64,000 nt of DNA from NCBI RefSeq assembly GCF_021117385.1, contig NZ_CP088252.1, positions 2,936,501 through 3,000,500 of the forward strand, read 5' to 3'. The translations under genes were made by a program, and so were the position numbers. Of the stretch, positions 9,839 to 13,993 are shown in pieces. The stretch comes from Frateuria soli. GTDB lineage: Bacteria; Pseudomonadota; Gammaproteobacteria; Xanthomonadales; Rhodanobacteraceae. Position 1 is the first letter of the stretch. Each line of letters opens with the position of its first letter. The notes under the pieces were generated by a model that worked only from the letters and a program-made list of their open reading frames with translations, had not been told where the DNA came from and searched no databases.

Positions 9839-12490
9839 TCAGAGCCAGCGACCGTAGCGCCGGATGTAGAGCAGCTTCACCCCCTGGGTGAGTGCCGCGT
9901 AGCAGAGCAGCGTCAGTGCCAGCCAGCCGAAGTAGGCCGGCGGCAACGCGGTCATGCCCAGCTTGAGGCCCAGCGGACTGTAGGGAAGGAACACGCCGAT
10001 CGCACCGATCGCCAGGCTCAGCGCCAGCACCGGCGCCGCCGCGATGCTCTGCACGAAAGGAATCCGCCGGGTGCGGATCATGTGCACGATCAGCGTCTGC
10101 GACAGCAGCCCCTCGACGAACCAGCCGGACTGGAACAGCGCCTGGTGCGCCGGGCCATTGGCGCCGAACACATGCCACAGCAGCCAGAAGGTCGTGAGGT
10201 CGAAGACCGAACTGGCCGGTCCCACCCAGGCCATGAAGCGGCCGATGTCGCTGGCGTCCCATTGCCGGGGCGACTTCAGGTACTCCTCGTCCATGCGGTC
10301 GAACGGAATCGCCAGTTGCGAGATGTCGTAGAGCAGGTTCTGCACCAGCAACTGCAGCGGAAGCATCGGCAGGAACGGCAGGAAGGCGCTCGCCACCAGC
10401 ACGCTGAACACGTTGCCGAAGTTCGAGCTGGCGGTCATCTTGATGTACTTCATCACGTTGCCGAAGGTGACCCGGCCCTCGATCACGCCCTCCTCCAGCA
10501 CCATCAGGTTCTTTTCCAGGAGGATGATGTCGGCCGACTCCTTGGCGATGTCGGTGGCACTGTCGACCGAGATGCCCACGTCCGCCTCGCGCAGCGCGGG
10601 TGCATCGTTGATGCCGTCGCCGAGGAAACCGACGGTGTGGCCCTGGCGCTGCAACGAGCTGACCACGCGCGCCTTCTGCAGCGGCGACATCTTGGCGAAC
10701 ACGGTGGTGCGCGCGACCAGCGCGTCTAGCGCGGGCTCGTCGAGCGGCTCGATGTCGCGGCCCTGCGCGGAATGGGTGACCTCCAGCCCGACCTCGCGGC
10801 AGATCTTGCGCGTGACCGCTTCGTTGTCGCCGGTGATCACCTTCACCGCCACGCCGTGGTCGCGCAGCGCCGCGATCGCGGTGGCGGCCGAGTCCTTGGG
10901 CGGATCGAGGAAGGCCAGGCAGCCGATCGCGGTCAGGCCCGCTTCGTCGGCCAGTCCATAGGCGCGCCCGCTCGGACTCTGCTGTTTGATCGCGACCACC
11001 AGCACGCGCAGGCCGTCCTCGTTGAGGCGGCGGGTCATGGCGCGGATCTCCGCGCGGCGCGCATCGTCCAGCGTGGTGTCGATGCCTTCCAGCCGGGCGG
11101 CGGTGCAGATCGAGAGCATCTCCTCCACCGCGCCCTTGCACACCAGCAGGTGCTGGCCGTCGCCACCGGCGAGCACCACCGACATGCGCCGGCGCTGGAA
11201 GTCGAACGGAATCTCGTCGACCAGCCGGAAGCGCGCGGCCATCGGATCGAGGTCGCGGTGCGCCAACACCGCCTTGTCCATCAGGTTCTTCAGGCCGGTC
11301 TGGAAGCGGCTGTTGAGGTAGCCGAATTCGAGGGCCTCGTCGGAAGCCTCGCCGTCGAGATCCAGGTGGCGCTCGAGCACAATCCGGTCGAGCGTCAGCG
11401 TGCCGGTCTTGTCGGTGCACAGCACGTCCATCGCGCCGAAGTTCTGGATGGCGTTGAGGCGCTTGACCACCACCTTGCGGCGGGACATCGCCATTGCACC
11501 CTTGCCCAGGTTCGCGGTGACGATCAGCGGCAGCATCTCGGGCGTCAGGCCGACCGCCACCGACAGTGCGAACAGGAAAGCCTGCAGCCAGTCGTGCTTG
11601 TCCAGACCGTTGATGGCGAACACCACCGGCACCATCACCGCCATGAAGCGGATCAGCAGCCAGCTGACCGAGCGCACGCCGCGGTCGAAGCTGGTCTGCA
11701 CGCGCTGGCCGGACAGGGTGTGCGCCAGCGAGCCCAGGTAGCTGCGCGAACCGGTCGCCACCACCACGGCAGTCGCGGTGCCGCTGACCACGTTGGTACC
11801 CATGTAGCAGACGCTGGGCAGGTCCAGCGCAGAGCCGGAGTGGGCATCGGCCAGGTCGTGCGCCATCGGTGCCGCCTTCTCCACCGGCAGCGATTCGCCG
11901 GTCAGGATCGCCTGGCTGATGAACAGGTCCTTGGCCGAGAGCAGCCGCAGGTCCGCCGGCACCATGTCGCCCGCGGCGAGGTGCACGACGTCGCCGGCGA
12001 CCAGCTCGCCGACCGGCACCTCGATACGCTCGCTGTGGCCGTCGGCCGCGCGCCGCGTGACGCTGGCGGTGTTGCGCACCATCGCCTTGAGCTGCTCGGC
12101 GGCGCGCGAGGAACGGTATTCCTGGGTAAAGCTGAGCAGCACGCTGATGCCCACCATCACGGCGATGATGAGCGGCCCGGTGACATCCTCGTGGTCCGTC
12201 GCCAGCTGCACGATCGCCAGCAGCACCAGCACCGCGATGAACGGGTTGCGACAGGCGCGCAGCAGCTGGCCCGTCCAGTGCGGCGGTTTCTCGTGCGAGG
12301 CCTCGTTGGCGCCGTCGCGGTGCAGGCGTGCGGCGATCCGTTCGGCATCCAGGCCGCCGGTGCCGGTGTCGAGGCGGGCCAGCAGTTCGTCGTTGCGCAG
12401 ACGCGCGTAGTCGGCCGCCACCACGTGCGGCGGCGCCGCGTTCCTGCCGGTCGCCCGGGCCGCGGTGGTCAGGAGGGTCTGCCTGGTCAT
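9839..12490 (-). CDS. mgtA: magnesium-translocating P-type ATPase
   Basis: The 883-aa type IIIB P-type ATPase imports Mg2+ through the inner membrane. Visible features are the TGES actuator motif (ILTGESLPVEK), the phosphorylation site DKTGTLTLD, the nucleotide-binding CKGAVEEML and the hinge GDGINDAPALREADVGISV. The segment VGLTPEMLPLIVTANLGKGA, which precedes the phosphorylation domain, is typical of MgtA/MgtB. The C-terminal membrane helices are complete. ATG 12490 (MTRQTLL) is preferred; ATG 12532 would add 14 residues but lies inside a strong hairpin. The gene has an unusually long 5' region with its own candidate leader ORFs, described separately. Confidence 0.95.
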   Translation of the reverse strand: MTRQTLLTTAARATGRNAAPPHVVAADYARLRNDELLARLDTGTGGLDAERIAARLHRDGANEASHEKPPHWTGQLLRACRNPFIAVLVLLAIVQLATDHEDVTGPLIIAVMVGISVLLSFTQEYRSSRAAEQLKAMVRNTASVTRRAADGHSERIEVPVGELVAGDVVHLAAGDMVPADLRLLSAKDLFISQAILTGESLPVEKAAPMAHDLADAHSGSALDLPSVCYMGTNVVSGTATAVVVATGSRSYLGSLAHTLSGQRVQTSFDRGVRSVSWLLIRFMAVMVPVVFAINGLDKHDWLQAFLFALSVAVGLTPEMLPLIVTANLGKGAMAMSRRKVVVKRLNAIQNFGAMDVLCTDKTGTLTLDRIVLERHLDLDGEASDEALEFGYLNSRFQTGLKNLMDKAVLAHRDLDPMAARFRLVDEIPFDFQRRRMSVVLAGGDGQHLLVCKGAVEEMLSICTAARLEGIDTTLDDARRAEIRAMTRRLNEDGLRVLVVAIKQQSPSGRAYGLADEAGLTAIGCLAFLDPPKDSAATAIAALRDHGVAVKVITGDNEAVTRKICREVGLEVTHSAQGRDIEPLDEPALDALVARTTVFAKMSPLQKARVVSSLQRQGHTVGFLGDGINDAPALREADVGISVDSATDIAKESADIILLEKNLMVLEEGVIEGRVTFGNVMKYIKMTASSNFGNVFSVLVASAFLPFLPMLPLQLLVQNLLYDISQLAIPFDRMDEEYLKSPRQWDASDIGRFMAWVGPASSVFDLTTFWLLWHVFGANGPAHQALFQSGWFVEGLLSQTLIVHMIRTRRIPFVQSIAAAPVLALSLAIGAIGVFLPYSPLGLKLGMTALPPAYFGWLALTLLCYAALTQGVKLLYIRRYGRWL

Positions 12491-12518
12491 CTGTGCGCTT
12501 CCGTCTGTCGCTTCATCG

Positions 12519-12550
12519 GCCGGCGCGCGCATTCGATCGGGCGCGCCGGC
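12519..12550 (-). promoter_or_regulatory. strong hairpin just upstream of the mgtA start
   Basis: GCCGGCGCGC at 12519-12528 pairs perfectly with GCGCGCCGGC at 12541-12550 across 12 bases. On the mgtA message this 10-bp GC stem ends 28 bases before the start codon, close enough to influence ribosome access. A weaker CCGG/CCGG stem lies just upstream. No T-run follows, so it is not a textbook terminator. Confidence 0.6.
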
Positions 12551-12629
12551 TATCGCAGGACCGGCCGATTGGGCGACCGGATCGGACCTGCTGCTGGCGG
12601 AGGCCAGCCCTTGCACGGCGGGCGCGGGC

Positions 12630-12818
12630 TCACCCGTTAACCACGCACGGCAGCGGCGCGGGCTGGGCGACGACGACCGGGCGGAGCTGCCCGGCCGCGC
12701 CGGTATCGCCCAGGGACGCCGGAACGGTGACGTTGTAGACCGGCCGCACCGTGCGACGACGGCCGATGGCAAGCCGGCGCCACAGACGCAGCAGCGATGA
12801 TTCGCGAAGGAGGTTCAT
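12630..12818 (-). CDS. 62-aa leader ORF upstream of mgtA, proline-rich tail
   Basis: ATG 12818 is preceded on the minus strand by AGAGGAG at ideal distance, one of the best ribosome-binding sites in the window. The peptide is very basic in its first third (LLRLWRRLAIGRRR). It ends in a proline-rich stretch (RPVVVAQPAPLPCVVNG) 139 bases before mgtA. No family is recognised. Position, the strong SD and proline codons close to the stop recall the MgtL/MgtP leader peptides of enterobacterial mgt genes, in which stalling on proline codons controls transcription into the transporter. Homology to those is not claimed. Confidence 0.45.
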   Translation of the reverse strand: MNLLRESSLLRLWRRLAIGRRRTVRPVYNVTVPASLGDTGAAGQLRPVVVAQPAPLPCVVNG

Positions 12819-12833
12819 GCCCATCTCCTCTAA

Positions 12834-12850
12834 AGGTGCCAGCGGCACCT
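12834..12850 (-). promoter_or_regulatory. hairpin next to the leader-ORF ribosome-binding site
   Basis: AGGTGCC-AGC-GGCACCT is a perfect 7-bp stem with a 3-base loop. On the minus-strand message it ends four bases before the AGAGGAG ribosome-binding site of the 62-aa ORF. It could stack beside, or compete for, that site. Confidence 0.55.
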
Positions 12851-12864
12851 GGTGGAGTGGGCCG

Positions 12865-12890
12865 GGCGTTTCCTAGTCGAGGAAAGCGCC
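12865..12890 (-). promoter_or_regulatory. hairpin containing the stop codon of the 38-aa leader ORF
   Basis: On the mgtA strand GGCG-C-TTTCCT pairs with AGGAAA-CGCC (one bulged base, 5-base loop). The TAG stop of the upstream 38-codon ORF (12873-12875) lies at the top of this stem. A ribosome terminating there would melt the hairpin, which is the geometry of translation-coupled attenuators. Confidence 0.5.
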
Positions 12891-12989
12891 GGCCGACCGC
12901 AGGCGGTCGCCGCAGGCGTTCAGCTTGTGATGCGACGCCGGCACCCGATGCAGGCGGATGTCGACGTTGCGACTAGGATAGACGTCCAT
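12873..12989 (-). CDS. possible 38-aa upstream leader ORF of mgtA
   Basis: The frame runs from ATG 12989 (preceded by AAAGG) to a TAG at 12873-12875 and encodes MDVYPSRNVDIRLHRV followed by a basic/polar remainder. Third codon positions are about 85 percent G or C, in line with real genes here. This is weak evidence in so GC-rich a genome. It starts about 50 bases after the predicted mgtA transcription start and ends inside a hairpin. No homologue is recognised, and it may be chance. Confidence 0.25.
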   Translation of the reverse strand: MDVYPSRNVDIRLHRVPASHHKLNACGDRLRSAGAFLD

Positions 12990-13025
12990 ATGCCTTTGGA
13001 AGGTCTTGGGGAATGCCGCGGCGCT

Positions 13026-13043
13026 GCGCGCCGGAGGGCGCGC
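13026..13043 (-). terminator. GC hairpin downstream of ctaB
   Basis: GCGCGCC-GGAG-GGCGCGC forms a perfect 7-bp stem 45 bases after the ctaB stop. No T-run follows, so intrinsic termination would be weak. The predicted mgtA start of transcription falls within it, so the mgtA message would carry only part of the stem. Confidence 0.35.
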
Positions 13044-13045
13044 GC

Positions 13046-13074
13046 ATTCTGGTGTCCGCATGCGTGCCTGTCAA
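13046..13074 (-). promoter_or_regulatory. candidate promoter of the mgtA leader transcript
   Basis: On the minus strand a perfect TTGACA (13074-13069) and CAGAAT (13051-13046, four of six matches to the -10 consensus) are 17 bases apart. Transcription would begin near 13039, giving an untranslated leader of about 550 bases before the mgtA ATG. The box begins 14 bases after the ctaB stop. Confidence 0.55.
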
Positions 13075-13087
13075 GCACGCCGCAGGC

Positions 13088-13993
13088 TCACGCCGTGCGC
13101 TGAAGCACGACGCTGGCATCCTGCATCGGTCCGACCAGCCAATGGTCCGCGAGCAGGAAGGCGAACAGCGCCATCAGGTACACGATCGAGTACTTGAACA
13201 CGCGCATGGCGAAGAACTCGTCCGGCGGGTTGAGCAGCCGGATCGCGTAGTACAGGAAGCCCGCGCCGAGCACCACTGCGCCACCCAGGTAAACCCCGCC
13301 ACTGAAGCCGGTCAGCGTGGGCAGCAGGGTTACCAGCACCAGCAGCACGGTATAGAACAGCACGTGCCAGCGCGTATAGGCCACGCCGTGGGTCACCGGC
13401 AGCATCGGGATCTGCGCACGCGCATAGTCCTGGCGACGGAAGATCGCCAGCGCCCAGAAGTGCGGCGGCGTCCACACGAAGATGATCAGGCACAACTGCA
13501 GCGCGAAGGCGTGCAGCTGCCCGGTCACCGCCGTCCAGCCCAGCACGGGCGGGATCGCGCCGGCCAGGCCGCCGATCACGATGTTCTGCGGCGTGGCGCG
13601 CTTGAGGTAGGCGGTGTAGACCAGCGCGTAGCCGATCAGTCCGCCGAAGGTCAGCCACGCGGTCAGCGGATTGACCAGCAACGCGAGCACCAGCATGGAG
13701 GCGATGCCGAGCGCGATGGCGAACAGCAGCACCTGGCGCGGCTTGAGGGCGCCGGTGGCCAGCGGTCGCCGCTGGGTGCGTGCCATCAGCTTGTCGATGC
13801 GCTCGTCGATCAGGTGGTTGAAGGCCGCGGCCGAGCCTGACGCCATCCAGATGCCCAGCGTGCCGAACACCAGCGCTCGCCACGGCGGAATGCCCGGTAC
13901 GGCCAGGAACATGCCGATCACGGCGCAGAACACCAGCAGCGCGACCACGCGCGGCTTGGTCAGCTGCAGGTATTCGCGCAGGTGAGCGCTCAT
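13088..13993 (-). CDS. ctaB: protoheme IX farnesyltransferase (haem O synthase)
   Basis: The enzyme attaches a farnesyl group to protohaem, giving haem O, which CtaA then oxidises to haem A for the aa3 oxidase. The 301-aa UbiA-family protein has nine membrane segments. The prenyl-diphosphate motif [20 protein letters not shown] lies around residues 59-78 and the second conserved loop [17 protein letters not shown] is present. ATG 13993 overlaps the ctaA stop by four bases, so the two genes are translationally coupled. It is the last gene of the SURF1-CxxxC protein-ctaA-ctaB unit. Confidence 0.95.

Follow-up and report, generated by a model that had tools for sequence, protein, structure and literature searches.

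A candidate translation-coupled leader RNA before mgtA in Frateuria soli, and its relatives before magnesium-related genes in Rhodanobacteraceae

In Mycobacterium tuberculosis, the pe20 Mbox is a leader RNA with two upstream open reading frames (ORFs) that precedes a low-Mg2+ operon; pairing between an anti-Shine-Dalgarno and a Shine-Dalgarno (SD) sequence controls the second of these ORFs, and Rho-dependent termination occurs downstream (PMC12810186). In Salmonella, the short ORF mgtQ of mgtC-mgtB lies over alternative stems, and a stem covers the site at which ribosomes load on the following gene (PMC8092293); mgtCBR carries the tandem attenuators mgtM and mgtP, its long leader having two short ORFs as well as stems ahead of Mg2+ genes (PMC3641672). 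The mgtE motif of Thioalkalivibrio is a narrowly distributed, structured leader RNA of a magnesium-transporter-type gene (PMC11109978). Here we examine the leader of mgtA, a Mg2+ transporter gene, in a 64,000 nucleotide (nt) stretch of the Frateuria soli genome (NZ_CP088252.1, positions 2,936,501 to 3,000,500; hereafter 'the window', whose numbering is used throughout). Our main finding is that this leader is probably (we put the probability at roughly 0.68) a cis-acting, translation-coupled RNA switch, and one member of a family-wide element found before magnesium-related genes. An earlier sequence-only reading of the window had described a long leader with two ORFs of 38 and 62 codons (ORF1 and ORF2) and interleaved stems, and these coordinates were confirmed (Table 1); absent from that account were the helix that we call P1, a covarying helix over the ribosome site of ORF2, and the occurrence of the element ahead of further genes for ions and metals.

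The traits just listed are those in which each known system resembles the Frateuria leader, and each also differs from it. Unlike the pe20 Mbox, the Frateuria leader has no Rfam Mbox match, and its junction of helices overlaps ORF1, whose stop codon lies within the closing helix. The mgtQ peptide, as reported, has 8 amino acids and requires Asp2 and Glu5, whereas ORF1 has 37-41 codons and no detected amino-acid selection; moreover, unlike mgtQ, ORF1 is followed by another small ORF and is found ahead of operons of several types. mgtP acts via conserved proline codons, but no such codon-level sensing is seen in the Frateuria leader, and the mgtE motif belongs to another genus and another gene, the likeness being one of distribution and gene type alone. 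We place the regulatory logic close to that of the pe20 Mbox and mgtQ, and by Rfam the RNA is neither Mbox nor Mg_sensor. Indeed, none of the 4227 Rfam models matched the window at gathering scores, and eight leader loci searched at E<=1 gave no Mbox match, only a chance-level one to mir-2004 (E 0.19). Mg_sensor, the family of the Salmonella mgtA leader, is present in Rfam and gave no match in the scan of all 4227 models. No description of such an element was found in the open-access literature, most subscription papers being outside the scope of that search.

R1, a covariance model that spans the ORF1 region and was built from 47 diverse elements, matched 158 of 233 Rhodanobacteraceae genomes (E<=0.01) in 22 of the 26 genera, a tally that includes at least one near-threshold match that is probably due to chance (G245, E 0.006); a protein search with ORF1 matched 152 of the 233 genomes and 18 of the 26 genera. 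When R1 was applied to an even order-level sample of 299 genomes (E<=0.001), 62 were matched, every one within Rhodanobacteraceae, and order-level ORF1 matches outside the family (E 0.003-0.008) were taken as chance. A DNA pattern found 84 stretches in a named collection; the 80 listed were mostly from Dyella and Rhodanobacter, the others coming from Frateuria, Luteibacter, Dokdonella and several unassigned bins, as well as from a single record that bears the label Candidatus Eremiobacteraeota, perhaps in error. Two model matches without an ATGGAC start, L194 (E 7e-5) and L195 (E 5e-4), were judged false on reading and dropped before elements were counted, and three weak, partial or filler stretches (L128, L105, L134) were excluded. 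The 158 elements retained are distinct over 330 nt, although one of them, L257, is a truncated version of L123, and the 139-nt element itself is represented by 144 distinct sequences. Loci L031-L100 came from the ORF1 protein search, which biases them to intact frames.

A promoter precedes ORF1. In the window, TTGACA (13074-13069) and CAGAAT (13051-13046), separated by 17 bases, are present as proposed earlier and form the sole sigma70-like site within 12480-13120 (shuffles: mean 0.0, standard deviation 0.2). A -35/-10 pair scoring at least 9/12 occurs in 156 of the 158 elements and in 1 of 158 base-shuffled counterparts; 143 of the 158 have a 17-base spacer, and the -10 usually ends about 58 nt before the ORF1 start. 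In the relative L002, the DNA 5' of the promoter differs, and similarity begins at the promoter. Separately, an inverted repeat, ATACCC..GGGTAT, spans the -10 region in 4 of the 19 listed promoters that are either unassigned or of the AdoMet decarboxylase (AdoMetDC)/NRMT class (L127, L169, L172, L190), with near forms in others; we take it to resemble a CsoR/RcnR-type operator.

Over ORF1, the RNA is predicted to adopt a three-way junction of helices P1, P2 and P3. In this structure 89.6% of cells are paired, against 21-41% in slid versions, and 13 pairs change on both sides, against 5.7 in shuffles. P1 forms 6-9 of its 9 pairs in all 47 elements (three pairs with changes on both sides), and the main helix of P2 has such changes in 7 of 11 pairs, with 84.9% of cells paired. 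A second structure contains hairpin B, the hairpin inside which ORF1 had been said to end, and does. It is 90.3% paired (slid versions, 29-47%) and holds 15 both-side pairs against 5.4 in shuffles; hairpin B alone reaches 92.9%, with both-side changes in 5 of 12 pairs. Both structures exceed 500 of 500 shuffles on five of five measures, as well as every slid control. P1 and hairpin B covary and have bases in common, so that they are mutually exclusive. In four elements, a change of the ORF1 stop codon from TAG to TGA is accompanied by a P1 change from U-A to C-G, with loss of the neighbouring pair. The fold of the ORF1 region is more stable than those of dinucleotide shuffles, with a mean z of -2.1 and values below -1.5 in 37 of 47 elements. 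In the model of the naked RNA, P1 is favoured (mean 0.86 over the 47 elements), and when its 5' strand is blocked, that is, when the first codons are covered, hairpin B is predicted at 0.95.

Such a covarying junction, upstream of genes for Mg2+ transporters and with near-invariant nucleotides including GAC at codon 2 of ORF1 in 157 of 158 elements, might be a direct riboswitch: the junction itself would bind Mg2+ or another metal, ribosomes would be unneeded for sensing, and the ORF1 frame would be a by-product. We consider this rather unlikely, as neither Mbox nor any other Rfam family matches and as ORF1, unlike the spacer, changes length mostly by triplets, which a purely structural RNA has no need to do. 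Indeed, 17 of 21 length events in ORF1 are multiples of three, compared with 11 of 66 for the neighbouring spacer (p=1.3e-7), and a second count, with the landmark of L176 set by hand, gave 15 of 18; four loci whose landmark was unplaceable (L188, L189, L191, L196) are outside the first count. Two of the four non-triplet changes are due to landmark errors (L059, L088), and the clear frame break is that of L131/L183. Moreover, ORF1 is 37-41 amino acids long in 155 of 158 elements, and 58 of the 60 elements found only by frame-free searches (covariance model or DNA pattern) keep an ORF1 of 37-41 codons, although the pattern itself demanded an ATGGAC start and the stop strand.

The peptide tells a different story. 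Among changes placed on trees of 110 mgtA-class sequences, 114 of 434 ORF1 changes are synonymous (0.263, against 0.262+-0.019 expected by relocation), with no third-position excess, and unpaired columns alone give 0.217 against 0.251+-0.026. Since the frame and triplet length changes are kept and amino-acid selection is not seen, ORF1 appears to be conserved as a reading frame rather than as a peptide. A role of ORF1 as an arrest or sensing peptide was accordingly rejected or weakened, selection being undetected overall and at unpaired columns. The earlier suggestion that the leader peptides sense amino acids or proline is not supported either, as conservation is also lacking for the proline residues with which ORF2 ends. 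One form of peptide sensing deserves separate mention: as in Salmonella, ORF1 could be an mgtQ-like sensor whose Asp2 and Pro5 make ribosomes drop off at low Mg2+. M1, D2, P5 and S6 are invariant across 29 aligned ORF1 peptides, and mgtQ reportedly needs Asp2 and Glu5 and frees the mgtB ribosome site (PMC8092293). We nevertheless hold this to be unlikely: amino-acid selection is absent over ORF1 as a whole (a test too coarse to exclude two residues), the near-universal GAC at codon 2 points to the nucleotides rather than the residue, and P5 and S6 are located in helix P1. Two mgtA elements of one genus, L131 (G136) and L183 (G142), mostly keep the RNA pattern with an ORF1 cut to 27 codons, a natural experiment on whether the whole frame is required.

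Further downstream, the hairpin that had been described next to the AGAGGAG site of ORF2 is present, but the conserved helix is longer than claimed: this extended helix (ext-H2) includes that hairpin (H2), takes in the SD and ends just short of the ORF2 start. On alignment A4, which does not contain L127, L191 and L196, 85.5% of ext-H2 cells are paired, against 37-45% in slid versions, and 69 cells change on both sides, against 22.0 in shuffles; on three of five measures it beats all 500 shuffles, and on the remaining two 9 and 10 of the 500 did as well. From this alignment RNAalifold recovered no more than the H2 core, and the counts are those of a structure that we named ourselves and so depend on that choice, with slid controls alongside. 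In fold models, 149 of 155 elements have an SD that is less accessible than that of their shuffles (means 0.21 and 0.46), and the average is lower in every operon class. By these measures, a conserved helix is predicted to cover the ribosome site of ORF2. In relatives, conservation thus extends to the two ORFs and to the first stems of the sequence-only reading, hairpin B and H2 (as ext-H2) with covariation, and that reading survives the refutation test it had set itself, but its third, GC-rich hairpin, although present in the window, is not conserved even in the genus (by reading, L002 and L004 are without it).

ORF2 differs from ORF1 in being selected at the protein level. Among 113 mgtA-class sequences, 1284 of 3071 changes are synonymous (0.418, against 0.292+-0.008 expected), with a strong third-position excess (1398, 867 and 806 changes at codon positions 3, 1 and 2). 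The 62-codon ORF had drawn attention for its proline-rich end; those prolines vary, and the invariant part is a mid-peptide T-V-P, found in 113 of 113. Neither window peptide, ORF1 or ORF2, matched Pfam or NCBIfam at their cut-offs. Selection on the protein and the invariant TVP are also what one would see if ORF2 encoded a small partner of MgtA, with the leader merely holding its gene and the stems being minor. This is improbable, given that NRMT-class operons, with an RNA of this kind in front, have ORF2 sequences that look different on visual inspection, and that the SD helix covaries across classes.

From the ORF1 stop to ORF2 the distance is 51-61 nt in 111 of 113 mgtA-class leaders. Between ORF2 and mgtA, a hairpin with a CTCC loop, TGGCCTCCGCCA, is found in its exact form in 53 of 113 spacers, with close variants elsewhere by reading. 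As a side observation, the mgtA ribosome site can pair upstream in the spacers of some relatives (for example L037, L032, L070 and L072), GACTCGCT with AGCGAGTC by reading; matched changes occur in L070 and L072, and neither the window nor the same-genus loci read have this pairing. In two RND/porin-class leaders (L125, L079), ORF2 ends in DHGGP-stop, and its last codons supply another short ORF, with an overlap at TGATG, with an SD-like site. In the Na/Pi class (L122, L123), ORF2 overlaps the start of the transporter gene by reading.

Competition between P1 and hairpin B, in attenuator-like order, recalls classical transcription attenuation, in which alternative hairpins would govern an intrinsic terminator, as the sequence-only reading suggested. 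There is little to recommend it here: a scan of 12480-13120 returned no terminator-like site, a six-T run is present in only 16 of 113 leaders, and the output that has been conserved is the covering of a ribosome site. Rho-dependent attenuation of the leader may still take place, and the excess of C over G in mgtA-class leaders fits Rho weakly (0.170 from ORF2 to mgtA against 0.101 in early mgtA, over stretches of unequal length).

The first gene downstream of the 158 elements encodes MgtA in 113 cases, AdoMet decarboxylase in 15, an RND adaptor in 11, an OprB-type porin in 5, a Na/Pi transporter in 3 and an NRAMP-like protein in 1; of the other 10, 8 run into a contig end, one precedes a TonB-receptor-like gene (by reading) and one a CPA1 antiporter gene. 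The 144 distinct elements give 101, 15, 10, 5, 3, 1 and 9, respectively. A gene for the NRAMP-like (NRMT-like) importer is also present at at least 9 of the 15 AdoMet decarboxylase loci, and a CzcA-type pump at at least 9 of the 11 RND loci. Phosphate is exported at low Mg2+. In the PDB, the NRAMP-like protein matches 7qia best (E 4e-54), then 10ky (8e-20) and MntH chains (1e-13 or weaker). 7qia is EleNRMT, a magnesium transporter (PMC8806188), and Salmonella induces Mg2+ transporters and polyamines in very low Mg2+ (PMC12421838). Taken together, the downstream genes suggest that the element marks a magnesium-limitation regulon. Mg2+ limitation would be the likeliest signal; given the efflux pumps and porins downstream, a different metal or a signal from the envelope may be sensed instead.

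We read the switch as controlling ORF2 and, via ORF2, the transporter; its signal and direction are what we infer as follows. The state of the RNA would be set by the passage of ribosomes along ORF1, and not by the ORF1 peptide. At low Mg2+, the ORF1 domain would be loosened, or ribosome movement on it altered, and the covered ORF2 site would open. The simplest route would be that a ribosome, on terminating at the ORF1 stop, opens ext-H2 at its base and re-initiates about 55 nt further along; this relay is our best inference. In the fold model, a ribosome placed at the ORF1 stop lowers pairing of the ext-H2 base from 0.92 to 0.82, a small effect in the expected direction. Translation of ORF2 would in turn permit transporter expression. 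In the Na/Pi class, the overlap of ORF2 with the gene start makes direct translational coupling possible, whereas in the mgtA class, which has no such overlap, ORF2 translation would keep Rho off the leader. With ample Mg2+, the ORF2 site would stay covered and mgtA expression low.

Several observations weigh against a translation-coupled switch of this kind. The modelled access to the ORF2 SD is unchanged by ribosomes on ORF1 (0.24 to 0.23 with ORF1 occupied early, 0.23 at its stop); opening of the ORF2 site by ORF1 occupancy alone thus finds no thermodynamic support in the fold model, and the link from ORF1 to ORF2 is a putative one. The SD is unpaired with a probability below 0.1 in just 49 of 155 elements. 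The ORF1 frame is altered or lost in 3 of 158 elements (27 codons in L131 and L183, 58 in L176), and L191 is degenerate. For the metal efflux RND systems, OprB porins, TonB-receptor-like gene and CPA1 antiporter, a link to Mg2+ is not obvious. Finally, MgtA is matched in 198 of 233 genomes (191 above the cut-off), against 158 with the element. Many genomes of genera g8, g37, g39 and g2 have MgtA and no element, so that other control must exist there.

Table 1. Annotated parts of the mgtA leader and adjoining gene in the window
Feature	Position	Strand	Remark
Sigma70-type promoter TTGACA-17-CAGAAT	13046..13074	-	direct reading; pair conserved in relatives
ORF1	12873..12989	-	38 codons; frame kept, no amino-acid selection seen
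P1 5' strand CCTAGTCG	12970..12977	-	ORF1 codons 5-7; partner strand 12879-12872
P1 3' strand CGACTAGG	12872..12879	-	includes ORF1 stop codon
P2 hairpin within ORF1	12932..12970	-	covarying main helix
P3 hairpin CGACCG/CGGTCG within ORF1	12894..12909	-	94.3% of cells paired
Hairpin B at ORF1 stop codon	12861..12893 (about)	-	hairpin 12890-12865 of the sequence-only reading; bases in common with P1
H2 core hairpin	12850-12833	-	direct reading
Extended H2 helix (ext-H2) covering ORF2 SD	about 12819..12863	-	predicted; covariation counts and SD accessibility
ORF2 SD AGAGGAG	12825..12831	-	read; core GGAG paired in fold
ORF2	12630..12818	-	62 codons; protein-level selection; mid-peptide TVP
Hairpin GCTGGC-CTCC-GCCAGC 3' of ORF2	12593..12608	-	common among relatives
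GC hairpin, third of the sequence-only reading	12550-12519	-	read in window; not conserved
mgtA, Mg2+ P-type ATPase	9839..12490	-	ATG at 12490; TIGR01524 1263 bits, above cut-off

The gene upstream of the leader is cyoE, by protein family match. Beyond this locus, our broadest proposal is a tentative one: ORF1 may be a pure ribosome track, fixed in frame, start and stop but free in its residues, with ribosome passage through a Mg2+-sensitive junction acting as the sensor and a single element thereby running a family-wide magnesium-limitation regulon of Mg2+ import, polyamine synthesis, and phosphate and metal traffic. Natural compensatory variants make tests of the mechanism straightforward. 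One locus would separate two roles of leader ORFs, with ribosome traffic served by the frame alone in ORF1 and peptide sequence selected as protein in ORF2. If true, this would amount to an undescribed RNA-based magnesium regulon in Rhodanobacteraceae.

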